From positions 1-64,000 of the forward strand of contig JAJQIK010000038.1 in NCBI GenBank assembly GCA_021199255.1: DNA of 64,000 bases, given 5' to 3'. The notes below the pieces were generated by a model. It searched no databases and was not told where the DNA came from. It worked only from the letters and a program-made list of their open reading frames with translations. Of the stretch, positions 31,603-50,279 are shown one piece after another. The DNA comes from Clostridiales bacterium (GTDB taxonomy: Bacteria > Bacillota > Clostridia > Lachnospirales > Lachnospiraceae). The position numbers were made by a program, and so were the translations under genes. The first letter of the stretch is position 1; each line of letters starts with the position of its first letter.

Positions 31603-31627
31603 GATAAGCTAAACACCAAAGCACTGT

Positions 31628-32476: not shown

Positions 32477-32505
32477 ATATCTACACCAGCTTTCTTTCCT
32501 ATCTG

Positions 32506-33504: not shown

Positions 33505-33540
33505 GCTGTTACCCCTTCTATCCCCCGTTACAATATAAAC

Positions 33541-34662: not shown

Positions 34663-34672
34663 ACGACACCTT

Positions 34673-35152
34673 CTATTCTACTTCATACAAAATATCCTCT
34701 ATCGAAATAATTGGGCAATTTAATTTTTGTGCCAGTTCTTCTTCAATTTCATTAAAGAAAAATACAGGCGTAACGATTACCGCGTCTACTTCTTCCAGTT
34801 CCGCATCCATTGTTACCATGTCTATTTCTGAATAGATAGCATCCGCATTTTTATCAATGCCATATTTAATCGTAATATCACTGTCTTTCAGTTCTTCCAC
34901 CAAGCGTTCCCCAACATAGCTCATTCCATAGATGGCTATGGTTTTGTACCCATTCTTTTCAAAATAATCCTTTAAATTCTTTCCTTCCTGCTTAACGGCA
35001 ACCCATTGGTTCATTAGAAGGAACAACGCCAGATGCTTGTCTGACATTGTCGTTTTCTTATTAAGCGCCTTTCCTGTTACTCGTAAGGATGCCCCCGCCC
35101 CTACCGTTACTCCTGCTAATGCAGAAATAATTGAAATGATACCTTTTTTCAT
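34673..35152 (-). CDS. Membrane-anchored stand-alone Rossmann module
   Basis: A 159-residue protein with no catalytic domain. Residues 1-25 (MKKGIISIISALAGVTVGAG) form a probable membrane anchor. Residues 65-159 are the same Rossmann-like module found fused to other enzymes here (TIAIYGMSYVGERLVEEL, then VDAVIVTPVFFFNEIEEEL and CPIISIEDILYEVE). I do not recognise a named family. Its membrane anchor and lack of an enzyme part suggest a scaffold or ligand-sensing role for the glycan complex; this is inference only. The genes on both sides are 10-15 bp away. Confidence 0.6.
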   Translation of the reverse strand: MKKGIISIISALAGVTVGAGASLRVTGKALNKKTTMSDKHLALFLLMNQWVAVKQEGKNLKDYFEKNGYKTIAIYGMSYVGERLVEELKDSDITIKYGIDKNADAIYSEIDMVTMDAELEEVDAVIVTPVFFFNEIEEELAQKLNCPIISIEDILYEVE

Positions 35153-35166
35153 TGTGTCCCTCTCCT

Positions 35167-36333
35167 TTAATTATTTTCTATAAGCTGATCCCAAAGTACG
35201 TTGACCCTATCTGCCGTAAAATGCAGGGAGCGCTCTTTGGCTTTTTGAGCATATATTGTCCATTGTTCTCCATTTTCCAACATTTGTATTATTTCTGAAA
35301 CAATTTCTTTTTTGATTTCCGTGTAATGATCATCTCTTATATCTTCATCACAGCATGGACAAAGCACTCCATACTTTCCATGCACTGCCTTTTCTATATG
35401 TTTTTGCCTTATCTCCGGAGCCAATATCTCACGATTTGCACCCGGAGCATCTAGTGCCACCACCGGAACCCCTTCTGTCATCGCCTCCAGCACTGCATTG
35501 GGAAATCCCTCTGCTTTAGACAAATTAATAAACACCTTGCTGTGTTGCAAATAATAGGTGACGTTATCCACCTGACCTATAAATTTAACTGCATCGCCAA
35601 GCCTCTTTTCTTTTACATATTTTGCAATTCTGCTCGCATAAGGCGTCGCATTATTTCCTATCAACAACAATTTTGCTTCTGGTACTTTTTCCTTTATCTG
35701 TTCCAAGCACTCAACCATCAATTGTTGCTGTTTCACTTCAGAAATTCTGGCAATAGATAGAATCACCTTATTCCCATAGTTCCATTCTCCTTCCTCTTTC
35801 ACATCTTTCATTTGTCTGATATGATTAGGAATAATCTTCAATAACTCCCTTTTAATCCCATATGACCGAATCATATCGGCCTTACCATACCTCGAAAGAA
35901 CCACTACCGCATCTGCCCGATTATAAACAAAGTTTAAAAATACCTTATTATAATACAGTCCTTGTAAATCTTTTCGACCTGATAAAGTAGTCCTCACAGA
36001 TGCAATGACTCTATCTTTTCCTTTGGACAAAATATTCGGTATATTCATTTCTTCCATAAAGCTAATAGATACGGAAATGTTATACCGTTCTTTTAAATTT
36101 GCAAGTTGTTTTGCTTCAGAATAAATTTTTATCGCATCGCTTATATATGTTTGCTTCAAACTCCCCAATGAAGATAGCTTTATAATTGTGCCGCAAAAGG
36201 GATAATCATTCTTAGTTTTATAACGTGTAAAAATATATAAAGTGTTTTTTTTCGCCAAATGATAGCTCAATTCAGACGCCGCACGTTCTGCGCCTCCGCC
36301 CCACAATGCTGGCAAAATTAATGCAATATTCAT
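35167..36333 (-). CDS. Family 4 glycosyltransferase
   Basis: A 388-residue GT-B retaining glycosyltransferase. It starts IALILPALWGGGAERAASELSYHL, the donor-side loop is IARISEVKQQQLMVECL and LLLIGN, and the E-x7-E motif region is NLSKAEGFPNAVLEAMTEGVPVVALDAPG (near 280). It transfers a sugar from a nucleotide donor to a lipid-linked intermediate in the cytosol. A near-identical copy of its first about 35 codons is stranded at 41446-41587, evidence of past duplication. It is the gene before the deacetylase-like one, with a 12-bp gap. Confidence 0.85.
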   Translation of the reverse strand: MNIALILPALWGGGAERAASELSYHLAKKNTLYIFTRYKTKNDYPFCGTIIKLSSLGSLKQTYISDAIKIYSEAKQLANLKERYNISVSISFMEEMNIPNILSKGKDRVIASVRTTLSGRKDLQGLYYNKVFLNFVYNRADAVVVLSRYGKADMIRSYGIKRELLKIIPNHIRQMKDVKEEGEWNYGNKVILSIARISEVKQQQLMVECLEQIKEKVPEAKLLLIGNNATPYASRIAKYVKEKRLGDAVKFIGQVDNVTYYLQHSKVFINLSKAEGFPNAVLEAMTEGVPVVALDAPGANREILAPEIRQKHIEKAVHGKYGVLCPCCDEDIRDDHYTEIKKEIVSEIIQMLENGEQWTIYAQKAKERSLHFTADRVNVLWDQLIENN

Positions 36334-36345
36334 AGTTCCTAATCC

Positions 36346-37284
36346 TTATGTACAGTATTTCGTTTTTACATATTCACTAACAGAAATTCCTGTATAATCC
36401 TTTTCCAGTTCTTCAAATAAAATCTCTAAATCATGATACAATTTATTAATGCTTTGCCTGGTTTTAAAGGTAGGATTTGTTCCTGCTGTTAATTCGGAAG
36501 AATGTAACATAAATTCTAAATAATCCATTTTAGGATTTTGCATTACTCTATCCTTTATCCATAGCAAAGATTCCAAATTTGTCCCATCGGGTCTCATCCA
36601 TTCCATTTTCTTGGTAAGCATAAATTTGCGGCGGCTATATCTTGGCAAAATAGTCGGTGGGATTTCATATATTCCGGAATTTCCCTGCCTATGAATATTT
36701 TTTGCAGACAACATATAACTACCTCTATATTTATCCTTTGAATAATCTGTCCCATACTGTTTATTTCCAATACAGTTTGTCCAAGATACTCCCGGCGTCA
36801 CTGTGCAATCTGCTATATAGCCCAATTTTTTCAAACATTTTACACCAAACTCGTCCAAATACCATCTTCCACTCCTATGGCTTGTCATTTTTATTTGAAA
36901 AACATCCTCTAGATGATTTGTTAAATATTTCATTTTGTTCCATTGAAGTTTAGTATCATACTCACCAATATATGAATGCGTTCCTTTGGGATTATATGGC
37001 AAATGTATCACCGGGGGGCAATTCCATGCGTGCATATGCATTCCGATTTCTGCAGTTCTCGACTGTAGTGCTGCTTTTGCCAATTCTACAAACGGTTCTG
37101 CATTGGACATTTCATAATTTACTAAATAAGTCGGAATAAAATGATATTTTTCACACAATATCTGAAACCGTTCTATATTTTGGGCATTTTCCGTTGTAAT
37201 TGGTTTTAACCCGTAACGAGTTATCTTATTTCGCCACAAATCATCTCCCTCTGTGTCAATCGTGATAATAAAGCTTTTTTTCAT
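36346..37284 (-). CDS. WalW-like polysaccharide-deacetylase-fold protein
   Basis: A 312-residue protein with the NodB-like opening SFIITIDTEGDD (residues 4-15), then GMHMHAWNCPP (near 82) as the metal His pair and SHRSGRWYLDEFGVKCLKKLGY (near 138). These match WalW-type predicted deacetylases in O-antigen loci. The catalytic Asp and His positions appear kept. No signal sequence is seen, so it may act on lipid-linked or nucleotide sugars in the cytosol. Fragments of a second copy of this gene lie at 41560-41760. Function is inferred from fold. Confidence 0.7.
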   Translation of the reverse strand: MKKSFIITIDTEGDDLWRNKITRYGLKPITTENAQNIERFQILCEKYHFIPTYLVNYEMSNAEPFVELAKAALQSRTAEIGMHMHAWNCPPVIHLPYNPKGTHSYIGEYDTKLQWNKMKYLTNHLEDVFQIKMTSHRSGRWYLDEFGVKCLKKLGYIADCTVTPGVSWTNCIGNKQYGTDYSKDKYRGSYMLSAKNIHRQGNSGIYEIPPTILPRYSRRKFMLTKKMEWMRPDGTNLESLLWIKDRVMQNPKMDYLEFMLHSSELTAGTNPTFKTRQSINKLYHDLEILFEELEKDYTGISVSEYVKTKYCT

Positions 37285-37317
37285 AACATATTATCCTCAG
37301 CTTTCAGGGTTATGTTT

Positions 37318-38388
37318 CTATATATATGCATACAATATAGTGCTGTAGTAACGCATTCCATAATGACGTATATGCATCTTATATTCCGGCACCCACTCCT
37401 TTAACATAAGAGGAATTTCCCATAAATCATTTGGTTTATGATATATACAAATAGCAAGCTTTGGCTTGTTACGCATTATCATATTTTTTGCGCCTTGTAA
37501 TGCAGGTATTTCCGCACCTTCAATATCCATCTTTATAAAGGAGACTTTTTCTTGTATTTCTGTATCCAAATCCACTACATCAATATAATGATTCCCTATA
37601 TTTTTCTCTGTAATTCGACCCGAATATACACTATCCGTATTATTAAAAGGCAGCCTTGTTTTCTTTGAATAAAGCCCTTTAGGAATAACATGTATTCTAT
37701 TGTCAAATTTGTACAACTTATTTTTTATTTTTTCTATCATAATAGAATCTGGTTCAAAACTATAGATTGCCTTAAACTGATTGCCTGTCCACTTACAAAA
37801 TTCCTCTATTGTATCGCCATCCCAAGCCCCTCCATCTACAAATACCTCATCTTTATCCTTTGAAAAATATTCATCTACAAAATATTCTGTCCCCGAACTC
37901 ATAATATCTGTATAATCCATAAAACCATTTCTTCTTTTATCAACCAGTACATCCACTAACTTTCTTGAAGCTTCATCATCTAATATATTTTTTAATTTAT
38001 CGATAATAGCATCGTCTATATCCTGCTGATACAAATAATCTTTCATTTCCGTATCCATCCATAACGCGGAATAATAATTGCTTAATCCCGCATTAGACAA
38101 TTGTTGTGCGATAACCCCAGGATACATTGTGCAGATTAGAATAATTGATTTCTTTATCTCTGCCAATGTTAAAATATCCTTCCCATAAACACGAAATCCC
38201 TCTATTTCTAATCCATTTTTTTGTGGGTCATTATCTATAAATCCTGCTATTTCCCAGCAAGAATTATATTTTTTACACTCCTTCGCCACACGCCTGCCCA
38301 TATCGCCCGCACCAAATAAATATATCTTTTTATTTACTGCACTTTCATTAAATAATTCCCAGGTATCATTTTTAAAATCCTTACGCAT
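37318..38388 (-). CDS. Rossmann module plus FkbM-family methyltransferase
   Basis: A 356-residue protein. Residues 18-120 form the shared Rossmann-like module (KIYLFGAGDMGRRVAKEC, IAGFIDNDPQKNG). Residues 170-356 are an FkbM methyltransferase: VFVDGGAWDGDTIEEFCKW is the SAM-binding motif I, IYSFEPDS motif II, and FIKMDIEGAEIPALQGA the family signature. It would O-methylate a sugar of the glycan. A frameshifted duplicate of its last about 45 codons lies at 43513-43643. A second, diverged paralogue is at 40244-41386. Confidence 0.85.
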   Translation of the reverse strand: MRKDFKNDTWELFNESAVNKKIYLFGAGDMGRRVAKECKKYNSCWEIAGFIDNDPQKNGLEIEGFRVYGKDILTLAEIKKSIILICTMYPGVIAQQLSNAGLSNYYSALWMDTEMKDYLYQQDIDDAIIDKLKNILDDEASRKLVDVLVDKRRNGFMDYTDIMSSGTEYFVDEYFSKDKDEVFVDGGAWDGDTIEEFCKWTGNQFKAIYSFEPDSIMIEKIKNKLYKFDNRIHVIPKGLYSKKTRLPFNNTDSVYSGRITEKNIGNHYIDVVDLDTEIQEKVSFIKMDIEGAEIPALQGAKNMIMRNKPKLAICIYHKPNDLWEIPLMLKEWVPEYKMHIRHYGMRYYSTILYAYI

Positions 38389-38406
38389 TCTTTCTCATCT
38401 CTTTTC

Positions 38407-38956
38407 CTATTTTTTATATATTAATACTTTTCTGCTGCTTCCATATGCCGCTTCAAACCTCTGAGATTCTTTATATAAGTGATATCCCAAATTCTCAAAA
38501 ATACTGTTAAATTCATGCGAATATTGATATGGCGGCGATTGCACTTTATCTACCACTAAGTATGCAATATCATTGTTTTTTATTATTGCTTTTAGATTAC
38601 TTTCAGCGTTTTTTACTGAATGTAACACATTCACGCAAATCAAAAAGCTTATCCGCCTCCCTTTAACATTCACAAAAGAGCCTTTTTTAAATTTTATAAA
38701 CGGATGCTTCATTTTAGCCCCCCACTACCTTTTCTGAAACATCCAATCCATATCTGTTTTTTACTTTTATATGCGAAATAATATCGCCCAGTCCACAGCC
38801 TATTTCTACAATTTCCATTTTTTTTAATTGAGTATCTGTATTAATAATTTTATTTATTTTTTCAATTGTCCAACACGCATATGGTCTTTTATTCACTTCA
38901 GTGATATGCCATATATCATATTTAAATATTCTTTGCAGCAAAACATTACTATTCAT
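38407..38956 (-). pseudogene. Class I SAM methyltransferase interrupted at a G6 tract
   Basis: Two adjoining frames make one protein of about 182 residues. The first (38714-38956) starts MNSNVLLQRIFKYDIWHI and has the SAM motif VEIGCGLGDII, then runs into TAA directly after GTGGGGGG. The second (38407-38712) continues VNVLHSVKNAESNL to the end. Removing one G from the six-base run (38718-38723, read on the minus strand) restores a single frame across the junction. This may be a true pseudogene, a phase-variable switch by strand slippage, or a sequencing error. The start overlaps the end of the GT10 gene by 8 bp, with AGGAG upstream. Confidence 0.75.
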
Positions 38957-40223
38957 TCTCTACTCCTGCTATTAAATCTTTAACATCAAAAATTTCAATA
39001 CCATTACATATTTCCTGCAAATAACCATGTATTCCCTCTACCGTATTAATAATACAAGCAGCTTTTTGATCAAAATATTGCGATATGTCATATATATTGA
39101 TATTCCGATACTTCTTCCCTGATAATTTTTTATCATAAATAGCTAATATGTTTATATCATCTCTTCTATATATCATATCTACTATCATTTTCCCGATCAA
39201 TCCATTCCCATATATAGAAATATTACCCCCTTTAAATTTGTGTAGCGGATCAATATCTTTTTCTTTCAATTCCTGTAATTTTTGGAGGATCTCATAATAA
39301 TTGCTCTGTTTTACCAATTTTTTTTGCTGGTCTCCTATCATCTTCCCCCGAGAATAACGTTGTCTTCGATACGCTTGTTCTTTATCCTGTTCAAAAATAT
39401 GTTTAAAAAATGAGAGCAATTCCTTATCACTTAGATATTTCTTAGCTCGTGATTTATTAGTTAATATGGGTTGTCGCATCATTTCAAGATATAAATTATC
39501 ATCATTATCTATTTCTTTTATTTTTTCGATAACTTCTTTCATAGTTGAAAACTTATTGTAATTAATAAATGCCTTTTCATTAAATTCTTCTGTAATATCA
39601 TCTGCGCCCCAATAAATTGGTACCGTATTTGCTGCCCATGCCTCAACAATTTTTTCCGTTATGTATCCTTCCTCAGAAGTATTTTCAAACGCGAGAGAAA
39701 ATTTGTAATTTTTCTGAAATTCAAGCTTATTGTCTACCTTATAGCCAATATTGTTTAAATATCTCCCTCCTGAATCTACTTGCTTATATTTTGATAATTC
39801 ATAAAAAAATTCTTCTCGGCAGGGGTTTGCACTTATTCCGTTTGATACCATCCAATTACAAAATTTCTTGTTTTGTATATCAATTGGGGCTTTATGCTTA
39901 CCAAGAGCCAAATCAAATTCTCTTCTCGTCCCATCCCGCCATAAATAGAAAGGCCAACGCAAATACCTATCATTTATATCAATATGAACCAGGTCAATCG
40001 CGTAATCATACATATTAAAATCAGGCCATTCACATTCACCACCAATATAAATTCTTATACATTCATAATTCAAATATTCATGTGTAAAAAAATCTCCGCA
40101 AAAAACATAATCTGGATCATCACATATTTCAACTTCATAAAGCGATTTTAATATGCTCATAACAAAATCGTATACGATATTGTTATTTCCTATATCTGCA
40201 AAATTTATTTTTATCTTTTTCAT
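38949..40223 (-). CDS. Family 10 fucosyltransferase-like protein with C-terminal Rossmann module
   Basis: A 424-residue protein. The GT10 domain (residues 1-290) has the strongest family block, FENTSEEGYITEKIVEAWAANTVPIYWG, near 195-222. Alpha-1,3/4-fucosyltransferases carry this GDP-fucose site. Residues 340-424 are the shared Rossmann-like module (ISIYGNGLIGKMIVDMI, ILAIYDKKLSG, ACIINTVEGIHGYLQEI). The ATG at 40223 is chosen over an upstream TTG because AGGA lies 6 nt before it. It precedes the broken methyltransferase and follows the second FkbM gene by 20 bp. Confidence 0.82.
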   Translation of the reverse strand: MKKIKINFADIGNNNIVYDFVMSILKSLYEVEICDDPDYVFCGDFFTHEYLNYECIRIYIGGECEWPDFNMYDYAIDLVHIDINDRYLRWPFYLWRDGTRREFDLALGKHKAPIDIQNKKFCNWMVSNGISANPCREEFFYELSKYKQVDSGGRYLNNIGYKVDNKLEFQKNYKFSLAFENTSEEGYITEKIVEAWAANTVPIYWGADDITEEFNEKAFINYNKFSTMKEVIEKIKEIDNDDNLYLEMMRQPILTNKSRAKKYLSDKELLSFFKHIFEQDKEQAYRRQRYSRGKMIGDQQKKLVKQSNYYEILQKLQELKEKDIDPLHKFKGGNISIYGNGLIGKMIVDMIYRRDDINILAIYDKKLSGKKYRNINIYDISQYFDQKAACIINTVEGIHGYLQEICNGIEIFDVKDLIAGVENE

Positions 40224-40243
40224 GACATTTCCTATCAAGATTT

Positions 40244-41386
40244 TTATAAATGCATATTTGTACCATTACGCAATCTTTTCACAGGCACCGCATATAATAC
40301 CGTTTCATTCGAATCCATGCGGTGTAAAGCTGCATATTTTCTGACGAAAAATTTATATTCTGGAGAAATTTTCCCAATAAATTTTGTTATACTAATCAAA
40401 TCATCCCACTTATGATATGCACTAATAGCCAAAATCGGCATTTGATTCCGTATTATATCCGCCCCGCCCTTCAAGGCAATTAACTCCATTCCTTCTATAT
40501 CCATAGTAATCAGCGTTACTTTTCTATTTTCAAAAAATTCATTTAATGTAGTTTCTTTATCTGATACCTTGTCTGATACGTAACGACGTATAATTTCAAT
40601 TTTCTGTTTTATCTCAACAGGTAATACATTTAAATTTCTCTCTAACACTTTCCACAGTTCTGGTTCAAAACAATAAACTTTATTAAATCTCTCAGAAAAT
40701 TTATCAAGGAAATAATAGACAGTGTCTCCAATCCCTCCCCCAATACATGCCAAATATTTTTCATCCTCGTCCCCCAAAAAACCCTCCCCCCAATATTTCT
40801 CGAAAGATGGATATACTTTTAAGCGATAAAAATCATTAAACAAGGAACTTCGTATTAATTCACATAAAGTTTCTTTAGACTCATCATCCCATAACAGATT
40901 AAGTATACTTTTGAACTCATCCTTTGCCTGATAATATTCATACGCCCACCCACTTGCAGGCGAATCATATATATGACCAATATTTATGTCAAAAATTTCC
41001 GAAATGCCTAATTTATAAAGCTGCTTTTTTATATCATTTGCCTCTTCTCCAAGATTCACAGCTATAATACACAGATAATTAACTCCATTCCTTTCATTAA
41101 CTGTATTTTCCAGTTGATCCCAATCAATTATTTTATTTCCTAATATTATTTCCCCTAATTTTGCTGGATTTCTATCCACAAAAAAATCTATTTCTATACC
41201 CATTTGTTTTAACCAAAATGCTGTATAAAATCCTATACGACCCGCACCATAAACAAGGATTCTTTTTTTTGAATACTTCAACTGATATTTTAATAGTGCC
41301 TCTCTACCGCAATATTCTATCAATCCACTTTTAACAGATGGATCACCCGAAAATATTTTTTCAAAATAATTCTCAAATTCCATCAT
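40244..41386 (-). CDS. Second FkbM-family methyltransferase with N-terminal Rossmann module
   Basis: A 380-residue paralogue of the protein at 37318-38388. The Rossmann-like module is at residues 38-140 (KRILVYGAGRIGFYTAFWL, IDFFVDRNPAKLG). The FkbM domain has YLACIGGGIGDTVYYFLDKF, VYCFEPELWKVL and LITMDIEGMELIALKGGADII. It differs clearly from the first paralogue in sequence, so it probably methylates another position. GGAGGGG stands 4-7 nt before its two alternative ATG codons. Its 5' end overlaps a stranded gene tail (41373-41447). Confidence 0.82.
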   Translation of the reverse strand: MMEFENYFEKIFSGDPSVKSGLIEYCGREALLKYQLKYSKKRILVYGAGRIGFYTAFWLKQMGIEIDFFVDRNPAKLGEIILGNKIIDWDQLENTVNERNGVNYLCIIAVNLGEEANDIKKQLYKLGISEIFDINIGHIYDSPASGWAYEYYQAKDEFKSILNLLWDDESKETLCELIRSSLFNDFYRLKVYPSFEKYWGEGFLGDEDEKYLACIGGGIGDTVYYFLDKFSERFNKVYCFEPELWKVLERNLNVLPVEIKQKIEIIRRYVSDKVSDKETTLNEFFENRKVTLITMDIEGMELIALKGGADIIRNQMPILAISAYHKWDDLISITKFIGKISPEYKFFVRKYAALHRMDSNETVLYAVPVKRLRNGTNMHL

Positions 41387-41447
41387 TACCCCTCCGCATT
41401 TGATTTATTATATTCTTAACATTAACAAATCCATTTTTATTTATAGT
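41373..41447 (-). pseudogene. Stranded 3' end of a propeller-type gene
   Basis: 24 codons ending in TGA read TINKNGFVNVKNIINQMRRG then NDGI. They match the last residues of the large protein at 43696-46230 (FVNLRSIIKQIQ...I), with the same overlap onto an FkbM start. I take it as the tail of a second, otherwise deleted copy of that gene. It abuts the stranded glycosyltransferase start at 41446. Confidence 0.65.
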
Positions 41448-41587
41448 AAAAATATATAAAGTGTTTTTTTCACTGAATGATAGCGCAAGTCAGACGCCGC
41501 ACGTTCTGCGCCTCTGCCCCACAATGCTGGCAAAATTAATGCAATATTCATAGTTCCTAATCCTTATGTACAGTATCTCGTTTTTAT
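41446..41587. repeat. Duplicated 5' end of the GT4 gene plus 3' end of the deacetylase gene
   Basis: About 141 bp matches 36227-36368 with only a handful of differences. It includes the first about 35 codons of the GT4 gene, the 12-bp gap and the last codons of the deacetylase-like gene. In this copy the frame has several changes and no full gene follows. It is a fossil of a duplicated segment. Confidence 0.85.
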
Positions 41588-41647
41588 CCTTTTTCTACTT
41601 TCGGACATCTGATTTTCAGATTCTGGAAGTGCGATTTCATCGCTTTT
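41588..41647. other. Unassigned spacer between the two stranded copies
   Basis: Sixty bases lie between the two duplicated fragments and match neither source region. I see no gene or motif in them. Confidence 0.4.
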
Positions 41648-41760
41648 GCATTTTCTGTTGTAATTGGTTTAACCCGTAACGAGTTACCTTATTTCGCCAC
41701 AAATTATCTCCCTCTGTGTCAATTGTAATAATAATTTTTTCATAACACATTATTCTCAAC
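41648..41760. repeat. Duplicated 5' end of the deacetylase-like gene
   Basis: About 113 bp matches 37183-37298, the first about 33 codons and leader of the WalW-like gene. A one-base deletion (GGTTTAACCC against GGTTTTAACCC) breaks the frame. Together with 41446-41587 it shows that most of a second copy of the gene was lost by internal deletion. The fragment abuts the 3' end of asnB. Confidence 0.85.
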
Positions 41761-43477
41761 TTATAATACTTCCCCATTCATTTTTTAAAATATTTTCCGA
41801 TATACATACATTTTCATTTATCTTTTTGATATAAGTTGGCGGGACAGAAAATCCTCTTTTAGCATGATATAAAATTTGCTTTGGGATTTCTTTATAAAAC
41901 GCATCCTTTAAAATTTTCTTTAAACTGTTTGCCGTGTAACAATCTTCCGCACTCAAAGAAAAGGCAAATTCTATCACTTTTCTCGACAAAAACGGTACCC
42001 TTGCTTCTAAAGAATTTACCATACTTACCCGATCTATCTTTGTCAAAATATCACCCGGCAAATATGTCTTAAAATCCAAATAACGTAACCTTGTTAAAAT
42101 CGGAAGTTCTTTAATATAATATTTTCTAAGATGCCAATATACATCATAATCTTTACTGATTCCCCATTCTTTTCGGTATACCTCTGCATGCTTCTTATTA
42201 TTCAATAATATTAATGGTAAATATTCTTTAAAACCGCAATTAATATATTTTGTTCTCATTTCCTGATTTAACACATCTTCTAACTTAAATTTTTCAACTA
42301 GTTGATTCAATATTTCACTATCAATTTTCTTTTTTTTCATCAGGTTATAATAAATATTATATCTTTGATAACCACCGAATAATTCGTCTCCTCCATCTCC
42401 GGTCAATACCACCGTAACCTTCCTTTTGGCAAGTTCAGAAACAGCATATGAAGGATATGCCGATGTGTCTGCAAATGGCTCATCATACCATTCCTGCATT
42501 TTTCCCTTGATTTTTTCTGTCTGAACATTAGTCAATATCATATTAGTATTATTCAGGCTATACTTTTCAACCAACATCTGTGCATATCTTGTTTCATCAT
42601 ACTTTTTCCCCTCAAAACCAATTGTAAAAGTATGAATATTAGGACTATACATATTGCAAAGATAGGAAATAATACTTGAATCCACACCACCACTGAGAAA
42701 TGTCCCTACTGGAACATCCGCAACAAGTTGCTCTTTTACACTTTTACCCAGCAATGCACTTAATCTTATTCCCAACTCCTCTGACGTTCTATGGCATCCT
42801 TCAGAAGAATTTACCCGTAATTTCCAATATTTCCTTTTTTCTACAATTCTTTTTTTTTCAATATCATAAGTAAGCATATGTGCAGGTTCTAATTTAAAAC
42901 ATCTTTTATACATACTCTTGGGTTCAGGAATATACCCGTAAAACAGATAATCGTATAATGCAGTATAATCTATCTCAAATTTTATATCTGTACAAGTTGT
43001 CTGCAATGCCTTTAGTTCCGATGCAAATGCAAAATAATGATTATCAATATAATAATACAGCGGTTTAATACCAACTCTATCCCGATATAACTTAACCTGC
43101 ATATTTCTTTGATCATAAATAGCAATCGAAAACATTCCGTCTATCAAATCAATAAATTTTTCACCATATTCCAAGTATGCATATAAAACAACTTCTGTAT
43201 CAGAATCAGAAAGAAAGCTATATTTCGTACTTAATATTTTTTTTAGTTCACTATATCCATAAATTTCTCCATTAAATACTACTGTAATATTTCCATCCGC
43301 ACTCGTCATTGGCTGCATACCATTATCAGACAAATCAACAATGGATAATCTTGCAAAAGCAAACGTAAAGTTATCTAATTCTTTTATGCGGATACCATCT
43401 GGACCTCTATGATATAATCTTTCAATTCCATCTTTATAATTCCAGTTTCTATTATTGCCGCCCAAAATACCGCACAT
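41756..43477 (-). CDS. asnB: Asparagine synthetase (glutamine-hydrolysing)
   Basis: A 573-residue class II amidotransferase. The catalytic Cys2 starts MCGILGGNNRNW, and YHRGPDG, ARLSIVDLS and VFNGEIYGY follow in the glutaminase half. The synthetase half has the PP-loop VGTFLSGGVDSSIISYL and LTGDGGDELFGGYQRYN. In surface-glycan loci such enzymes often amidate a sugar carboxylate rather than make free asparagine; this is inference from context. A GGAGG site is 7 nt before ATG. It lies between two recombination scars, so it may have entered with a duplicated segment. Confidence 0.88.
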   Translation of the reverse strand: MCGILGGNNRNWNYKDGIERLYHRGPDGIRIKELDNFTFAFARLSIVDLSDNGMQPMTSADGNITVVFNGEIYGYSELKKILSTKYSFLSDSDTEVVLYAYLEYGEKFIDLIDGMFSIAIYDQRNMQVKLYRDRVGIKPLYYYIDNHYFAFASELKALQTTCTDIKFEIDYTALYDYLFYGYIPEPKSMYKRCFKLEPAHMLTYDIEKKRIVEKRKYWKLRVNSSEGCHRTSEELGIRLSALLGKSVKEQLVADVPVGTFLSGGVDSSIISYLCNMYSPNIHTFTIGFEGKKYDETRYAQMLVEKYSLNNTNMILTNVQTEKIKGKMQEWYDEPFADTSAYPSYAVSELAKRKVTVVLTGDGGDELFGGYQRYNIYYNLMKKKKIDSEILNQLVEKFKLEDVLNQEMRTKYINCGFKEYLPLILLNNKKHAEVYRKEWGISKDYDVYWHLRKYYIKELPILTRLRYLDFKTYLPGDILTKIDRVSMVNSLEARVPFLSRKVIEFAFSLSAEDCYTANSLKKILKDAFYKEIPKQILYHAKRGFSVPPTYIKKINENVCISENILKNEWGSIIS

Positions 43478-43512
43478 ACCGAATCCTCCAAAATATGTTT
43501 TTTAGTCCTACA

Positions 43513-43709
43513 CATATGCATACAATATAATGCTGTAGTAACACATTCCATAATGACGTATATGCATCTTATATTCTGGCACCCACTCCCTTTAACATAA
43601 GAGGAATTTCCCATAAATCATTTGGTTTATGATAGATGCAAATTAATCCACTGCTCATAGATGGAACACCCTAAAATATTTTCTCAAGCCAACTGTCAAA
43701 TTTCACTAT
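43513..43709 (-). pseudogene. Chimeric FkbM methyltransferase remnant
   Basis: Two fused fragments. Positions 43643-43709 encode KFDSWLEKIF, a stop, then GVPSMSSGLI, matching the start of the FkbM gene at 40244-41386 (EFENYFEKIFSGDPSVKSGLI). Positions 43513-43643 continue as CIYHKPNDLWEIPLMLK, matching the last about 45 codons of the FkbM gene at 37318-38388, with an extra base that shifts the frame. The fragment records deletion between two FkbM genes. It fills the gap between asnB and the large gene. Confidence 0.78.
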
Positions 43710-46230
43710 TACTTCTCTCCACTTGAATTTGTTTTATTATGCTTCTGAGGTTTACAAACTCATTTTCACTTAGAACAAAGCTTTTCTGATTAGCATACAA
43801 AATATTTTTGCTTGGTAAATCTGCAAAAGCCATCTCTTCTTTATCAATTTCCATCTCTTCAATCGTCAAATCGTTTATATCTAACCTATAGATTTTCGCA
43901 TTTCCTCTGACCTGAAAGAATAATGTCGTACCATCATTAACTACAAAGCCAAATGCATTATAAGTTCCTGCTTCTCGCCAATATCCATCACTTTTTTCGA
44001 TTTCTATTTTGCTTATTTTTCGCTCTGATTTCTCCCTCACTCCAATTTCTTCCTTAGTTGGCAGGAAATAGAAAATCCTATTCTGTCCCCAAACCGCCCA
44101 TTCATACGCTTGGCCATTTTCGACCTCGACTGCCAACATTTTTTCTTCTATTTCTTTGGTTTCCATATCGACAATAAACTCATTATTATCTAAGCCTAAA
44201 ATAATAAGCCTGTTATTTTCCTCCCAAATACTACGCAGGCCATGATTTTGCGAACGATTCTTACATACAATAGGGATTATTTCAAATTTCTTTTGCTCAA
44301 CATCATAAGATATAATATATGGAATATATCTCATAGATAAAAACACCTTGTTTTCTTTCATACAATAATAATCTGATAAAACATAATTATTAATCGCAGC
44401 TTTTTCCCCATTATCCAATATCGTATAACCTAATTTATCTATTCCCATTCTCTGTAATTCTTTCATATATCCGTCATATCTATTAAGTTTTTTATCCTTC
44501 CTTCCAATAATATAGATTCCCGGAATCTCTTCGCCCACCAAATATATATTTTTTTCATCATGAAATATCGTAAAAAATTTTTGATCTATTTTATCTAAAA
44601 GAGTTTCATATTTAGTAAAGGTTTTTGTATTGAGATTAAAGATACATATATTTTCTGCATTAAAAGGCGCCATCCATATTTCGTCTTCAATCAAATCGAA
44701 TGCAATAAACAAATTCTCTCTATATCCTTCATAGGGATTTTCATACACTTCAATTCTTCTGGTATTTAAATTTATTTCAATTAAAGCATTCGTATATTCA
44801 GATAGTAAATATAATGTATCATGATAAATTATTGCACGCATACTGCTCAGCATATACTCTTGCCAACTATTCTTATTAACATACAGTGGATTTTGTATGC
44901 AAACGCTTTTCCGTTTTCCTTTAAACAGTTGTACAATACTGCTCCCGTCCCCATAATACGCGTCGCTTAATACCACCGCCCTGTCCATATCAGCCGTATC
45001 GTCATAAATGCCCCAGCCTGCCATTCTGTACTGCTCCACTATTCTCCGGTACTCCTCCCAGAGCTGCGGGCGCATAGACTTAATCGTATTTTCAATCAGG
45101 GGATGGGGACGCCAGAGAAGCGCCACCTCTTCTCGATTTTCGTAAAAGGTCCGGAATACGTCCTGCATTTTCTCCAGCATCTTTTCTCCATGCCGTAATA
45201 ATGCGCTGATGCCCGTATTGTAGAAAATGATCTTCTTTCGGTTTCCATCCGGCTTATGAATAATCCGCAGCCATTCCTGCGGTATTTCTAAATCCTCCAT
45301 TTTGGTATTTAATACTTTATCTATCTTTGGAGAGCCAAGCCCCAGAAATTTCTTTTTCAGCCATTCCCTGTCTGTATGTTCCTTCGGGAAGCCATTGGCG
45401 ACGGCTTCTTTCTGATATTCATTCACGTAAATCTGTGCCATTTTTTCTGATTGTAGAATGACCTTATCCGCACAGATAACGCCCGGCGTCCAGACAAAAT
45501 GCTTCATGCCGTCGATGGCCGTCTGGTCATCCGGTTCTATTTCCTGTAATACAAAATAAGGTATATACACTAACTCTTCGGTATACTTTTTCAGATTTGC
45601 CGCGTAATATCTCGGATGGACGCTTGTTACAAAGTTACAGTTGTCATACGGGTTGTGAATATAAATCACATCCGGTTTCCTATCCTCGAAAGAATAGGTC
45701 TGCCAGTCAATCACTTCTATGTTTTTGGGGTATTCGCGACCTTCATAATGAATCTGGCCCAGGCTGCCGTCCGGATTTTTATCATAATAGGGAATCGGCA
45801 CACAATAGACATCGCAGTTGGGATCTTTCTTCGCCTCCAGATATACGCTTTCCAGAGAGTCCCACATACTGGCCTTATATGGGAAAAAAGCAATTTCCCT
45901 GCGCACAGGCATATGCTTGATTTCGTTTTCAGCTTTCAACAGTATTTCATCCAGATTTTTATAAAACTTCTGTGGTGGAATCGTTTCCAATCTTACGCAC
46001 GCCTGATAAACTCTTTCGCAGTATTCCTCCAGAAAAGCGACAGCCTGCGTGCCTTCTCCCTCAATCTGCTCGATGGCTTCCCCCATTTGGATAGCGGCCT
46101 CCTGGCAGTCCGCCAGTGCGGTCTGGACAGCCTGATAATCTTTCCGCTCCAGCCGGTTCCGGCTCTTCTGATGAAGCGTATGCAGGCTCTTACATATTTC
46201 TAACAGTTGTTCCTTCTGCACCTTGCGCAT
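43696..46230 (-). CDS. Large chimeric protein: TagB/F-like GT-B half plus propeller-like half
   Basis: An 844-residue protein. Residues 1-430 start with coiled-coil helices and include VIYIHNPYDN, LWRPHPL and DAYYGDGSSIVQLFKGKRK, which resemble the nucleotide-side motifs of CDP-glycerol glycerophosphotransferases. Residues 450-844 show repeated short strand motifs (IYHDTLYLLSEYTNALIEI, IYIIGRK, IISYDVEQKK) like a beta-propeller. Base composition changes sharply near 44,900: the 5' half is G+C-rich like the core genome, the 3' half A+T-rich like the variable genes. The start at 46230 (MRKVQKEQ) follows AAGGGG. Function is unknown; a role in glycan phosphopolyol transfer is possible. Confidence 0.65.
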   Translation of the reverse strand: MRKVQKEQLLEICKSLHTLHQKSRNRLERKDYQAVQTALADCQEAAIQMGEAIEQIEGEGTQAVAFLEEYCERVYQACVRLETIPPQKFYKNLDEILLKAENEIKHMPVRREIAFFPYKASMWDSLESVYLEAKKDPNCDVYCVPIPYYDKNPDGSLGQIHYEGREYPKNIEVIDWQTYSFEDRKPDVIYIHNPYDNCNFVTSVHPRYYAANLKKYTEELVYIPYFVLQEIEPDDQTAIDGMKHFVWTPGVICADKVILQSEKMAQIYVNEYQKEAVANGFPKEHTDREWLKKKFLGLGSPKIDKVLNTKMEDLEIPQEWLRIIHKPDGNRKKIIFYNTGISALLRHGEKMLEKMQDVFRTFYENREEVALLWRPHPLIENTIKSMRPQLWEEYRRIVEQYRMAGWGIYDDTADMDRAVVLSDAYYGDGSSIVQLFKGKRKSVCIQNPLYVNKNSWQEYMLSSMRAIIYHDTLYLLSEYTNALIEINLNTRRIEVYENPYEGYRENLFIAFDLIEDEIWMAPFNAENICIFNLNTKTFTKYETLLDKIDQKFFTIFHDEKNIYLVGEEIPGIYIIGRKDKKLNRYDGYMKELQRMGIDKLGYTILDNGEKAAINNYVLSDYYCMKENKVFLSMRYIPYIISYDVEQKKFEIIPIVCKNRSQNHGLRSIWEENNRLIILGLDNNEFIVDMETKEIEEKMLAVEVENGQAYEWAVWGQNRIFYFLPTKEEIGVREKSERKISKIEIEKSDGYWREAGTYNAFGFVVNDGTTLFFQVRGNAKIYRLDINDLTIEEMEIDKEEMAFADLPSKNILYANQKSFVLSENEFVNLRSIIKQIQVERSNSEI

Positions 46231-46252
46231 AGACGAATATCCCCTTCTGTCA

Positions 46253-46441
46253 TCACATTTTCTTTTCCCCTTTGACCACCACAACGCGCGGTGCCGGGCT
46301 TTCCGCCTTCTCCCGCCGAATGGCTATCTCAGGCGGCGCGTCTATTTCCAGTTGAATACGGTTATAGGTAGATTGTGTGACTTTCACCTTAGCGCGGTCT
46401 ATCGCAATACTGTCTCCCGGTTTGATCGTTATTTTCAGCAT
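46253..46441 (-). CDS. csrA: Carbon storage regulator CsrA
   Basis: A 62-residue CsrA homologue starting MLKITIKPGDSIAID, with the RNA-binding strand and core IEIDAPPEIAIRREK (QLEIDAPPEIAIRREK here), where the conserved Arg follows AIR. CsrA binds GGA motifs in mRNA leaders and in Firmicutes controls flagellin (hag) translation with FliW as antagonist. The start at 46441 has GGAGGAG 5 nt upstream; the longer open frame upstream has no family match. It is 22 bp ahead of the large GT gene, so it heads the glycan operon. No fliW or flagellin gene is in the window. Confidence 0.85.
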   Translation of the reverse strand: MLKITIKPGDSIAIDRAKVKVTQSTYNRIQLEIDAPPEIAIRREKAESPAPRVVVVKGEKKM

Positions 46442-46496
46442 TGAACTCCTCCATGTTATAGATATTGCCGTAAAAATCAGATTTAAAAGAAGAACA

Positions 46497-46681
46497 TTAT
46501 CAAAAGGTGTACTTTTTGATAAAAATTTTGCGCCAGGAAAATGAAACGTGAAATAATAAGAAGATAATACGAAATGACCCATTTCATAGGGTTAAGGATA
46601 TTGATTTTTTGTCGATAATATAATAAAATAAGTACAAGTTTTATGTATTTGACCATTATCAAAAAGTACACTATATGATTT
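46497..46681. promoter_or_regulatory. Candidate serine-recombinase invertible promoter element
   Basis: Left site 46497-46522: TTATCAAAAGGT, GT, ACTTTTTGATAA; the two 12-bp halves are inverted repeats matching at 11 of 12 positions. Right site 46656-46681: TTATCAAAAAGT, AC, ACTATATGATTT, halves matching at 8 of 12. The sites are inverted relative to each other, share a 16-bp core and have the same GT centre when aligned. Between them on the plus strand is TTGATT (46601-46606), 17 bp, TAAAAT (46624-46629). A serine invertase gene is at 48220-48831. In the present orientation the promoter points away from csrA. Confidence 0.5.
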
Positions 46682-46815
46682 TGCGAATCCATGATATGTA
46701 ATTTTAAGAATGGGATAAGTGATTCAGGCTTGCACAACGAGGATTGTTTCAGATAGGAGCAGTCTTTTTTTGTTTAGTGAAATTTATTTTACGTATTATT
46801 TCATCACAACATGGA
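46682..46815. other. Intergenic stretch without a gene
   Basis: Between the inverted element and the direct repeats no gene, clear promoter or terminator is seen. The region is A+T-rich on its right side. Confidence 0.4.
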
Positions 46816-46931
46816 CATCTTAAACTTAGGGCGCAAGCGTCAAAAGTTTTTGATAAATCTCTGTTTTCCGATTTACTTTTGAGGCTCTTTTTGCTATACT
46901 CATCTTAAACTTAGGGCGCAAGCGTCAAAAG
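46816..46931 (+). repeat. 31-bp direct repeats around the DUF4143 ATPase promoter
   Basis: Identical 31-bp copies lie at 46816-46846 and 46901-46931, beginning CATCTTAAACTTAGGGCGCA. Between them is a promoter, TTTACT (46872-46877), 17 bp, TATACT (46895-46900), so the second copy covers the transcription start and the first lies upstream of the -35 box. The likely roles are paired operator sites or a duplicated segment. Confidence 0.7.
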
Positions 46932-46945
46932 CAGGAGGCGCAAAA

Positions 46946-48223
46946 ATGATCCAAAGAGATTTTTATTTAAACAGACTGATTCGCAATATGTGGAATGGGG
47001 AAATCAAGGTTATCACGGGGATTCGTCGTTGCGGGAAATCTGTGTTACTGCTTGACCTGTTTTACAACTATTTGCTGGAACAGGGAGTGACGGATGACCA
47101 TATTCTGAGACTGGAGCTTGACCAACGTAGGTTTTATAAATTCCGCAATCCTATTACTCTGTGCGAATATGTAGAGAACATTGTAACAGGTAACAAAGAT
47201 GAAAAATATTTTCTGTTCGTAGATGAGGTTCAGTTCACGACTAAAGTAAAAGATAAAGAAAACGACGGCATTGAGGTTTCCATTTACGATATGCTCAACG
47301 AGCTGAAGTCTTACAGGAATCTTGATGTATATGTGACAGGCAGCAATTCCAGAATGTTGTCAAAGGATATTGCAACAGAATTTCGTGGCAGAGCCACGCA
47401 GATTCACGTTTATCCGCTTTCCTTCGCCGAATTTTACGCTTATGCAGGCGGCGACAAAAGAACTGCGCTGGATCAGTATATGCTTTACGGCGGTATGCCG
47501 CGCATTACCGCTCTGAATGATGAGCATGAGAAGAAATTCTACTTGAAAAATCTTTACGATGAGTTGTACGTAAAGGATATTGTGGAGCGGAACAATTTAG
47601 AGCGTGAGGATGTGCTGAATGCTATTTTGGACTATGTTGCGTCGGGGATTGGTTCGCTTACAAATCCCACCAATATTGCGAATGCGCTTTCCTCTATGCG
47701 AAACGAGAAAATAAACGGCTCCCTTATTTCTGCCTACCTGTCCCATACAATGGATGCTTTTCTGATTGAGATGGCGAGGAGATACGATGTCAAGGGTAAG
47801 ACCTATTTCAACTATCCGAACAAGTATTACTACACGGATATCGGACTGCGCAATGCGAGACTCAATTACCGTCAATTTGATCCGGGGCATATCATGGAGA
47901 ATATGATCTATAATGAACTTGTGCGCCGTCGTTATTCCGTAGATGTAGGAGTGGTTACAGAAAGAAATCACTCAGAAAAGATTCGGCGGGAAATTGACTT
48001 TGTTGTGAATGATGCCGACCGCCGCATTTATATTCAGTCGGCCTATCAGATGGATAACGAAAAGAAAGAGAACTCCGAATTGCAGTCCCTGCGCCTGACG
48101 GGAGATTTTTTCAAAAAAATTGTGATACGGATGGATATCCCCCACAGCTTCTATGATGATAACGGATTTTTGCACTGTAATCTGATTGATTTTTTACTTG
48201 GTGACGTAGATATATTTGTTTAA
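46946..48223 (+). CDS. AAA ATPase with DUF4143 domain
   Basis: A 425-residue P-loop ATPase of the AAA_14/DUF4143 type. Walker A is GIRRCGKS (near 27), Walker B FLFVDEVQ (near 92), and a sensor-like TGSNSRML follows. The C-terminal DUF4143 domain (about 210-400) carries EIDFVV and a nuclease-like core where the usual Lys is replaced by QSAYQ. The family is widespread in gut anaerobes; roles are not established, with links to mobile elements suggested. AGGAGG precedes ATG by 7 nt. Its stop overlaps the stop of the convergent recombinase gene by 4 bp. Confidence 0.88.
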   Translation: MIQRDFYLNRLIRNMWNGEIKVITGIRRCGKSVLLLDLFYNYLLEQGVTDDHILRLELDQRRFYKFRNPITLCEYVENIVTGNKDEKYFLFVDEVQFTTKVKDKENDGIEVSIYDMLNELKSYRNLDVYVTGSNSRMLSKDIATEFRGRATQIHVYPLSFAEFYAYAGGDKRTALDQYMLYGGMPRITALNDEHEKKFYLKNLYDELYVKDIVERNNLEREDVLNAILDYVASGIGSLTNPTNIANALSSMRNEKINGSLISAYLSHTMDAFLIEMARRYDVKGKTYFNYPNKYYYTDIGLRNARLNYRQFDPGHIMENMIYNELVRRRYSVDVGVVTERNHSEKIRREIDFVVNDADRRIYIQSAYQMDNEKKENSELQSLRLTGDFFKKIVIRMDIPHSFYDDNGFLHCNLIDFLLGDVDIFV

Positions 48224-48831
48224 TGGGATTTGTATTTCAGGGACTGTTCGTTTGCTCTCCTATAGAACGTAGCCGTAGCAATGTTGCACAGCTTTGCCGC
48301 CTCCTTTCCCGATATTTCTTTTGCAACCCATCTGCCGTATATCTGTTCGAAATTTTCCGGTATGGGTTTAGGCGGCCTGCCAAACTGTACGCCGCGCAAT
48401 TTCGCCGCTTCTATTCCCTCTCTCTGTCTCTGCTTAATATTTTTACGTTCATTTTCCGCCACGAAAGACAACACCTGCAGCACAATATCGCTGAGGAAGG
48501 TTCCCATCAGGTCTTTACCCCTTCTGGTATCCAGAAGCGGCATATCCAGCACTACAATATCGACTTTCTTTTCTCTTGTCAGCACTCGCCATTGCTCCAG
48601 AATCTCTTCATAATCCCTGCCCAGCCTGTCGATGCTTACCACATAAAGCAAATCCTCCTGCTTCAATTTCATGAGAAGCCTCTGATACATAGGACGGTTA
48701 AAATCCTTGCCGGACTGCTTATCCATATAAATATTCTCCTCCGGCACCTTTACTCCGCTCATGGCTATCATCTGTCTGTCCTCATTCTGTTCTTTTGTGC
48801 TGACACGCACATAACCATACACTTTTCCCAT
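48220..48831 (-). CDS. Serine recombinase/DNA invertase (Hin/Pin type)
   Basis: A small serine recombinase of about 203 residues. The catalytic domain begins GKVYGYVRVSTKEQNEDRQ, with nucleophile Ser in VRVS, and has SIDRLGRDYEEI with the active-site Arg pair and a LRGVQFGRP hinge. A C-terminal HTH (GKEAAKLCNIATATFYRR) reads the half-site. Such enzymes invert or resolve DNA between 26-bp sites built of two 12-bp half-sites around a 2-bp crossover, the form found at 46497-46681. The start at 48831 has GGGGA 5 nt upstream, better than the ATG 12 bp earlier. Confidence 0.9.
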   Translation of the reverse strand: MGKVYGYVRVSTKEQNEDRQMIAMSGVKVPEENIYMDKQSGKDFNRPMYQRLLMKLKQEDLLYVVSIDRLGRDYEEILEQWRVLTREKKVDIVVLDMPLLDTRRGKDLMGTFLSDIVLQVLSFVAENERKNIKQRQREGIEAAKLRGVQFGRPPKPIPENFEQIYGRWVAKEISGKEAAKLCNIATATFYRRANEQSLKYKSH

Positions 48832-48938
48832 ACCAATCCCCATTTCTGAGCAACTTGTTGCGAAGCATTAACAAAAAACAGGCACAAAAAAAAGCGCCTA
48901 TCCGAAGATAGACACTTAAGGCTATCATTCCACCCTTT

Positions 48939-50279
48939 TTACATAAACGGAACCATATAGATTGGCAAATAATAAATGCCATTCTCCCACTTATAATCTT
49001 TCGTGTGAACAACGTATTTGTCTCCAATACGATTACTATATTTATCACAGAATACGTCTAATGATTTATGGTTTCTATAGTTTCCGGACTTTACTTCCAC
49101 GGGATTTATTTTATTTTCCGCCGAAAGAATAAAATCTATTTCATATAAATGATTCGACTTACCATTCTCCATCGTATAATAAAACAGATGATTGCCCTTC
49201 GCTACCAGCATCTGTGCTACGACATTTTCATATACATATCCTAAATTAGCTTCCAGCTTATCCGAAAGGAGTTTATTATAAATTATATTATCGGTATAGT
49301 GTTTGTCCTTAAACGCAAGCGTCACAAACAGCCCCACATCTGACAGAAACAGCTTGTATCGTCCTGCATCCTTTTCAAGTGCCATTCCCACGCTGGGATT
49401 ATTGGCATGGTAGGCAATATTTACCGTATACGAGCTAAGGATATCCGGTAATAATTCGCGTACCTGTTCTGTGCGTATCCCCTCCCTCGCATTTGACAAA
49501 ACATATCTGGACGCATTGCCTGTGAGGCTGGCCGGAATAGAATCATAGATATCGCCTGCCAATCCAGTACCGTCTATCTTTGTAAAATCCTCCTCGTATA
49601 AATCCACGATTTCCCTTTTGACTTCATCAACCGCTTGTAAATTATTATGCTCCAAATAGGTTTCTATAGCCTGAGGCATCCCCCCGATAAGCATATACAA
49701 TCTAAATATGCGCATCAAATTTCTGTGCAGCGCATTGCCTGCAGCCCTTTTGTTTTTTAAAAGCAGTCTAATCGTATCCGCCGTGATTTCATCGCCTATA
49801 GCCCATAAAAATTCCTCAAAATCCATGGGATACATCGATATCTTGTGCTCCTCACTGGGAATTAATATGTCCCTTGTATTCCTCCTTATCGATAAAAGCG
49901 ACCCTGTTTCAATATACTTATATCTTCCGTCAGCTACAAAATACTTAATAGCCTGTCTGGCCTTAGGGAGCATCTGAACCTCGTCAAATATGATGACAGA
50001 CTCATTTTTATATAACCTGACGCCGGTTAACTGCTGTAGCTGCAAAAAGAAAAAATCCAGGTTGTATGTGTCGTCAAACAATTCCATAATTTCCTTACTG
50101 GTGTGCGCAAAATCTATCAAAATATATGACTTGAAATTTTTCCTGGCAAATTCTTCCGCTATGGTTGATTTCCCAACTCTTCTGGCGCCTTTAATCAAGA
50201 GCGCATATTTGCCGCTGCGCCTTTCTTTCCAATCAAGCATTTCATCATATATTTTTCTTCTAAAAACAGTTTTAACCAT
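48939..50279 (-). CDS. AAA ATPase with DUF4143 domain
   Basis: A second AAA_14/DUF4143 protein, 446 residues, clearly different in sequence from the one at 46946. Walker A is GARRVGKS (near 31), Walker B VIIFDEVQ (near 96), sensor TGSLLS. The C-terminal domain has YEIDFILSAENKINPVEVKSGN, an intact PD-(D/E)xK-like core with the Lys kept. It is upstream of, and read in the same direction as, the recombinase gene. A promoter with extended -10 TGTTATAAT and -35 TTGTAA at 16 bp lies just in front, with AAGGAGG before ATG. Confidence 0.87.
   Translation of the reverse strand: MVKTVFRRKIYDEMLDWKERRSGKYALLIKGARRVGKSTIAEEFARKNFKSYILIDFAHTSKEIMELFDDTYNLDFFFLQLQQLTGVRLYKNESVIIFDEVQMLPKARQAIKYFVADGRYKYIETGSLLSIRRNTRDILIPSEEHKISMYPMDFEEFLWAIGDEITADTIRLLLKNKRAAGNALHRNLMRIFRLYMLIGGMPQAIETYLEHNNLQAVDEVKREIVDLYEEDFTKIDGTGLAGDIYDSIPASLTGNASRYVLSNAREGIRTEQVRELLPDILSSYTVNIAYHANNPSVGMALEKDAGRYKLFLSDVGLFVTLAFKDKHYTDNIIYNKLLSDKLEANLGYVYENVVAQMLVAKGNHLFYYTMENGKSNHLYEIDFILSAENKINPVEVKSGNYRNHKSLDVFCDKYSNRIGDKYVVHTKDYKWENGIYYLPIYMVPFM

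Follow-up and report, generated by a model that had tools for sequence, protein, structure and literature searches.

The sites at which the Salmonella invertase Hin acts are each built from two 12-bp half-sites around a 2-bp centre, with half-sites resembling TTATCAAAAA. Clostridioides difficile uses the tyrosine recombinase RecV for its flagellar switch, whose effect does not depend on reorienting a promoter. In published accounts, Hin is described as needing a Fis-bound recombinational enhancer, a feature that distinguishes the Hin-type invertases (PMC4513852), Mpi of Bacteroides fragilis as inverting seven PS promoters (PMC4747536), and the C. difficile flagellar switch as an inversion upstream of an operon (PMC7446863). 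Promoter inversion is also reported to be well documented in gut Bacteroidales (PMC10939037, PMC11892184). A search of the open-licence literature returned no paper joining Lachnospiraceae with inversion terms; the class of switch described below may nonetheless have been reported already.

Here we analyze a candidate switch in a 64,000-nucleotide stretch of DNA (the window) from a Lachnospiraceae genome listed as Clostridiales bacterium (GCA_021199255.1, contig JAJQIK010000038.1). The interval 46497-46681 is very probably an invertible promoter (inverton) that is flipped by the recombinase encoded at 48220-48843 and that, in its ON orientation, would drive a csrA-like gene and a set of glycan genes. 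The features on which the argument turns are as follows.

25155-43477, minus strand: remaining surface-glycan cluster, with IspD-like, TarF/TarL-like and asparagine synthase-like genes among others, predicted to form a single operon
43696-46230, minus strand: large glycan-locus gene, 844 aa, with no Pfam or NCBIfam match and with homologs near like switches in loci L094 and L115
46253-46441, minus strand: divergent csrA-like gene, which would be the first gene behind the switch when ON
46497-46522, plus strand: recombination site 1 (csrA side), 12-bp half-sites flanking the centre GT, with like sites in relatives
46511-46667, no strand: predicted invertible segment, 157 bp between crossover centres; the matching interval is inverted in homologous cassettes
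46601-46629, plus strand: sigma70-like promoter TTGATT-17-TAAAAT, facing away from csrA and predicted to be OFF, with like promoters inside homologous cassettes
46656-46681, plus strand: recombination site 2 (recombinase side), centre AC, outer half degenerate
46739-46767, plus strand: terminator-like stem and T-run directly outside site 2, a consensus match only
46946-48223, plus strand: AAA_14/DUF4143 ATPase gene between site 2 and the recombinase; its homologs in loci L162 and L186 are placed elsewhere than between site and recombinase
48220-48843, minus strand: small serine recombinase of 207 aa, the proposed invertase, with a resolvase domain containing Ser15, a long helix and a C-terminal three-helix domain

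The original prediction described two 26-bp imperfect palindromes in inverted orientation, with matched GT/AC centres and a 16-bp identical core, and re-reading of the letters confirmed each of these points. Site 1 reads TTATCAAAAGGT-GT-ACTTTTTGATAA and site 2 reads TTATCAAAAAGT-AC-ACTATATGATTT. Their inner half-sites are identical, 16 bp (TTATCAAAAAGTACAC) are common to both and, since the two centres are reverse complements of one another, the sites lie in inverted orientation. Site 1 forms 11 of 12 palindromic pairs and site 2 only 8 of 12, owing to the degenerate outer half of the latter. The 157 bp that had been placed between the sites is the distance between crossover centres (46511-46667); the 26-bp sites themselves are separated by 133 bp. 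The pair has the 12-2-12, inverted form typical of Hin/Gin/Pin sites and, with a promoter (a consensus match) enclosed upstream of genes, the arrangement of an inverton. When palindromes with at least 8 of 12 pairs and matched centres were sought at distances of 90-240 bp, the pair scored 40 and was the sole one in the 64-kb window with a combined score of 34 or more. Dinucleotide shuffling of the whole window, repeated 40 times, produced no pair at or above 34, and the best score among 1000 shuffled versions of 46201-47000 was 32, below that of the window pair. A chance origin of the pair is ruled out by these shuffles. Across the genome of origin (3.08 Mb, 93 contigs), five matches to the 16-bp half-site-plus-centre pattern were found at one mismatch or fewer, three within the window pair and two on other contigs, compared with two matches for a control pattern.

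Like sites were found in other genomes. The whole site (at most 3 mismatches) was matched in 6 of 77 same-genus genomes, with none for the control. A 20-bp core (at most 2 mismatches) was matched in 76 of 397 family genomes, but the backwards-pattern control matched 27 by count, one of them 18 times, so that single core matches prove little and the evidence is carried by pairs. As a separate observation, 27 site-core matches, mostly with AT centres, occur in one genome (G372, loci L134-L143), perhaps as a many-site regulon or operator set; pairs 240-326 bp apart were seen in 5 of the 10 loci read, and no window-type recombinase was found in those loci. For the analysis of pairs, 40 loci (L094-L133) were picked from site-pattern matches; for at least 20 of them, an evident pair was the reason for the choice. 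With the window included, 32 of 41 loci had at least one pair with reverse-complementary centres, and 34 of the 36 candidate pairs were inverted-matched. Five of these 34 have the self-complementary centre AT and are therefore uninformative on orientation, which leaves 29 with asymmetric centres (e.g. GT/AC, CT/AG) to set against a single direct pair, itself inside a triple. The start-to-start distance was 339 bp in one of the 34 pairs and 125-191 bp in the remaining 33. Nine of the 40 site-fetched loci (L118-L123, L129-L131) had no matched pair, and looser scans gave weak partners for two of them (L119, L123). Of the 31 other loci with a pair, 15 encode a homologous recombinase no more than 400 bp from it. 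These data bear on the idea that the palindromes are paired operators for a dimeric repressor, placed around a fixed promoter. Palindromes do flank a promoter here, and some sites, having AT centres, are fully palindromic. The idea is nevertheless barely credible, given that asymmetric centres are inverted-matched in 29 pairs versus one direct and one unmatched, that the sites sit 3' of serine recombinase stop codons and that the interval is inverted between homologs, as described below.

The recombinase had been placed at 48220-48831. It is indeed encoded there, and its reading frame from the first ATG extends over 48220-48843, position 48831 marking a second ATG, where several relatives start. 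With a PF00239 domain carrying the catalytic serine, a long helix and a C-terminal DNA-binding domain in about 200 aa, the protein has the make-up of a small serine recombinase. Its frame is intact, and Arg13 and Ser15 are invariant across 20 aligned recombinase rows. A structure model (mean pLDDT 79, pTM 0.52) shows the long helix and a three-helix C-terminus; seven of 20 homologs matched the HTH_7 model (E up to 1), and the window protein did not. By profile and fold the nearest solved relatives are Sin and gamma-delta resolvase, with full-length TM-scores below 0.6. Among solved chains only, profile comparison gave 4.9e-38 for Sin (2r0q), 1.4e-26 for gamma-delta, and 2e-20 and 4e-20 for the DNA-invertase chains 4m6f and 3uj3 (Gin). 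The term 'Hin/Gin/Pin-type' used in the original prediction is apt for the 12-2-12 form of the sites, but among solved chains the enzyme comes nearest to Sin and gamma-delta. Against the NCBIfam Mpi model the protein scored 42 bits, with a cut-off of 272, placing it outside that family. Kinship with Sin and gamma-delta is what could suggest that the pair belongs to a mobile element as its resolvase res site, made up of a crossover and an accessory site, and is not an inversion switch. However, over both locus sets (fetched by site and, below, by recombinase) the two sites of a pair resemble each other, face opposite ways and are mostly separated by 113-196 bp, and their interiors have promoters and are found inverted, in homologs rather than at the window itself; this is not the organization of a Tn3/Sin res site, and we regard that explanation as highly improbable.

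Public genomes were scanned with the alignment of the 20 recombinases, which matched at least 592 stretches and provided a second set of loci, the best 80 of at least 562 confirmed (L144-L223). Cultured commensals are represented among the loci with a like unit: L171 is from Ruminococcus turbiniformis and L160, whose partner site is weaker, from Merdimonas faecis BR31. Because the query alignment was made mostly from site-linked enzymes and only the best 80 of at least 562 were kept, a bias toward site-linked kin is possible. Among the 77 of these best 80 that had enough downstream sequence, the motif GYGTAV lay within 60 bp 3' of the recombinase stop codon in 49, as against 4 for an equal stretch upstream, and in 37 it was joined by a GTACRC partner 90-200 bp further on. 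Whole-locus scanning detected pairs in 32 of the best 80, nearly all about 20 bp or less from the recombinase stop, and none in 8 shuffled loci. The half-sites vary among loci (CAAAAAGT, TTACAGGAA, AGGTAAAAA), while the core is mostly GTGTAC/GTACAC. On a tree of 104 recombinases, in which one locus (L144 and L108) is counted in both sets, the label CAAAAAGT was clustered (0 of 500 shuffles as low). The rows nearest to the window enzyme by tree path (L145, L144/L108 and L147) all have CAAAAAGT-type sites; against this, scanning detected no adjacent pair for either the row of highest identity (L146, 79%) or the sister row (L149). The smallest well-supported clade with the window enzyme comprises 19 rows, 8 labelled CAAAAAGT (window included), 11 with no pair detected and none of another type. 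The no-pair label is threshold-dependent: several loci so labelled have weaker partners, and L163 received it despite a pair 66 bp off. We also considered whether the recombinase-proximal site lies inside the terminator of the recombinase gene. Strict stem extension was passed by four of the 56 proximal sites and by none of the 56 distal ones, and the general claim was dropped as unsupported; by eye, some TTACAGG-type sites look terminator-embedded.

Several close kin of the window enzyme abut their sites. In the window, on the other hand, the recombinase lies 1.5 kb from the pair, with the AAA_14 gene intervening, and its end at 48220 overlaps the end of that gene at 48223. Because the sites of relatives are usually about 20 bp or less from the recombinase stop, the AAA_14 gene has probably been inserted between site and recombinase. 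It is preceded by a promoter match of its own (46872-46900) and, just 5' of the gene, by two identical 31-bp repeats (46816-46846 and 46901-46931), a 28-base piece of which was found nowhere else in the same genome at up to 3 mismatches. On the other side of the recombinase there is a second AAA_14/DUF4143 gene (48939-50279), 23.6% identical to the first over 225 aa. The broken layout raises the question of whether the switch is decayed or locked, having once flipped and being now fixed OFF by the intervening gene and by decay of the outer half of site 2. Such a fate would fit the 8 of 12 palindromic pairs of site 2, the separation of site and recombinase by the AAA_14 gene, and the lack of an adjacent pair by scan in 11 of the 19 clade rows. 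It fits poorly with the intact recombinase frame and its invariant residues, with inner half-sites and centres that are perfect at both sites, and with the finding that naturally inverted cassettes (L105/L107; L214) also have uneven outer halves. We consider a locked switch unlikely and the window switch probably functional. Flipping could instead be carried out by one of two paralogous small recombinases on contigs C68 and C85 of the same genome, both full-length and 63-71% identical to the window enzyme (BLAST). Yet the weak candidate pair that accompanies the C68 enzyme is built from other half-sites, and neither protein falls inside the 19-row clade of the window enzyme, making their involvement distinctly improbable. 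The C68 candidate pair (L010, around 1170-1330) has AT centres 127 bp apart and lies 16 bp past the recombinase stop; a stricter scan gave none. With a TTGAAA-16-TATAAT promoter, and beside an MBOAT-like gene, it may be a second switch in this genome.

The original prediction had proposed comparing the interval between related genomes, and this comparison showed that homologous cassettes carry the promoter segment both ways round. Two loci of one genome, L105 and L107, share a 145-bp stretch that is 90% identical and in opposite orientation, while the two sites (25/25 and 26/26 bases) are co-oriented, as is a stretch to the right (81% over 84 columns). The second case involves three loci from MAGs of uncultured Acetatifactor (L163, L166 and L214), in which the recombinase ends are co-oriented at 73-79% identity. 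The right flank is likewise co-oriented between L166 and L214 (74% over 234 bp), and L163 and L166 run in the same sense at the right site and beyond (72% over 130 columns). The promoter-bearing part, by contrast, is inverted between L163 and L166 (82%, 101 columns) and between L166 and L214 (76%, 100 columns), and lies in the same sense in L163 and L214 (71% over 91). The promoter faces the recombinase in L166 and the opposite way in L163 and L214. At the level of aligned sequence, these comparisons show that the cassette class flips in nature. For the window locus itself, represented by one assembly in one orientation, we infer present-day flipping by analogy with these relatives. The reading of 46497-46681 as an invertible promoter is thus supported because paired sites recur, because such sites are linked to homologous recombinases and because homologous cassettes are found inverted. 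At contig ends in L112 and L117, assemblies break 29 bp past one inverton (genome G300) and 54 bp before another (G065), as mixed orientations could cause.

The promoter elements of the window lie at 46601-46606 (-35) and 46624-46629 (-10). The plus-strand TTGATT-17-TAAAAT said to face away from csrA is present as a consensus match, which by itself is not significant against shuffles (p=0.075) under a scoring matrix approximating sigma70 consensus frequencies. The reported absence of a comparable csrA-facing promoter was borne out as well: a consensus scan, in which promoter matches were no commoner than in shuffles (24 vs 25.9), gave no minus-strand promoter of at least 9/12 between 46441 and 46795, the nearest being at 46823-46795. 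Across the cassettes, 30 of 56 recombinase-linked units had a best promoter that outscored 95% of shuffles of the same interior, where by our arithmetic 2.8 units would be expected; in the site-fetched set, 15 of 33 pairs reached p<0.05. The form TTGNTT-17-TARRAT was repeated in several interiors. As for direction, 27 of 37 recombinase-fetched units (from the best 80 of at least 562 loci) had the promoter pointing toward the recombinase, 4 away and 6 ambiguously, L208 being counted as ambiguous with its unit registered off its true site; a two-sided binomial calculation of our own on 27 versus 4 gives about 3e-5. The corresponding numbers for 19 site-fetched units were 9, 2 and 8, and the window promoter likewise faces the recombinase side. 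Antisense feedback on the recombinase, considered in this connection, was not extended to the window because the terminator-like stem intervenes. Terminator-like matches number 8 in 41000-47000, compared with 2.8 in shuffles.

In the mechanism we favor, which borrows its strand-exchange steps from known serine recombinases, the recombinase at 48220-48843 would bind both 26-bp sites as dimers, cut at the GT/AC centres and rejoin the ends after rotation, leaving 46511-46667 inverted. The assembled orientation would be OFF, with the promoter reading right, through site 2, into the terminator-like stem at 46739-46767, which would stop OFF-state transcripts ahead of the AAA_14 gene. After inversion, 108 nt would separate the end of the -10 element from the csrA-like ATG, the leader would contain one site, and the promoter would transcribe the csrA-like gene and then the glycan genes behind it. 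As DNA, the csrA promoter region matched, among 77 genus genomes, its own genome and two short stretches (25 and 30 bases) taken as chance; a 34-base interior piece had 0 matches in a viral contig collection, and a search of a plasmid collection gave no match.

The csrA-like and glycan genes are the likely target of the switch. The csrA-like protein scored 39.9 and 38.8 bits against PF02599 (cut-off 27), and 21.6 and 19.3 bits against the NCBIfam equivalogs (cut-offs 73 and 70.1). A canonical csrA (88.8 bits), to which it is 23% identical, lies on another contig directly after fliW. When compared with solved CsrA (best E 0.19), it keeps the C-terminal AP-E-RE stretch, but the N-terminal LTRR reads ITIK, so that RNA binding is uncertain. 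In the other 76 genomes of the genus the protein had no match at E 0.001. To call it a global RNA-binding regulator was accordingly an overstatement, the window copy being divergent and the canonical gene residing beside fliW. The 20-kb operon, also proposed originally, is a prediction; the cluster as one transcript would have to bridge apparent gaps of 218, 369 and 560 bp between listed ORFs (small ORFs being unlisted), and it has promoter-like matches inside. Within the cluster, the asparagine synthase-like protein exceeds its curated cut-off, and the IspD-like and TarF/TarL-like matches fall below theirs.

How far this pairing of switch and cluster extends was followed through the large glycan gene. 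On contig C60, a paralogous cluster, with 78% identity to the large gene over the first 446 residues of the latter, lacks a pair of this kind. Homologs near a switch were found in L094, behind an IspD-like gene and itself split, and in L115, behind a TnpB-like gene, in both cases without a csrA-like gene. The csrA-plus-switch arrangement was seen in no other genome searched, and among 43 loci around homologs of the large gene and csrA a pair was present only in the window's own locus; the association of switch and cluster is therefore rare. Genome G271 has a closer copy of the large gene (66%) that lacks a pair. The link between large gene and switch is real in three places and is not general. 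Seven neighbor proteins of other switches included IspD, BspA-type LRR, FkbH, NRPS-like, a sub-threshold Wzy_C and a VWA protein with a pilin-tip domain, along with one without a match. In two same-genus genomes a TnpB-like protein with a Cas12f1-like TNB domain is encoded directly 5' of the large glycan gene (L027:92-1561, L259:7682-9040), and in one of the two this gene sits between switch and large gene.

Taken as a whole, the relatives show that Firmicutes have serine-recombinase cassettes whose layout recurs and whose flips are visible, in some cases beside surface-glycan and surface-protein genes. The layout provides a genome-only signature for locating phase-variable surface loci in such bacteria. 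The window extends the possible targets of a switch of this kind to a CsrA-family protein. A more ambitious and rather doubtful reading, offered tentatively, joins all of this into a class of self-contained serine-invertase cassettes that would be widespread in Lachnospiraceae and Oscillospiraceae and so far little described. In such a class the 3' end of the recombinase gene would abut the inverton, the GTGTAC/GTACAC core would be shared and its flanks enzyme-specific, and the layout would build in an OFF bias because the OFF promoter would fire toward the 3' end of the recombinase gene. The window layout would then have been broken by the AAA_14 gene, with its switch controlling a dedicated CsrA-family paralog and glycan genes. 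If this were true, one flip would change a surface sugar and a possible RNA-binding protein together.

The window is a new example of an already known kind of switch, and its parts can be matched to several described systems. It shares with Hin/hix of Salmonella and its kin (Gin, Pin, Cin) the 12-2-12 sites and a serine recombinase comprising, in the window as modelled, a catalytic domain, a long helix and a helical domain at the C-terminus; it differs in that its segment is just 157 bp long and in that Sin and gamma-delta outscore Gin among solved chains. The RecV switch of C. difficile differs in using a tyrosine enzyme and turning no promoter. It is, like the window switch, an inversion switch upstream of an operon, and in a clostridial relative (PMC7446863). 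The group 139 invertons of gut Clostridia, the main Clostridia group in the PhaseFinderDC community survey, are similarly inverted-repeat switches with a linked recombinase nearby, but in the main text of that survey they are tied to tyrosine-type recombinases and the word 'serine' is absent (PMC11892184). Mpi of B. fragilis is described as one serine recombinase that flips promoter segments controlling surface polysaccharide loci (PMC4747536), whereas the window has one pair near one recombinase, in another phylum and with other sites.
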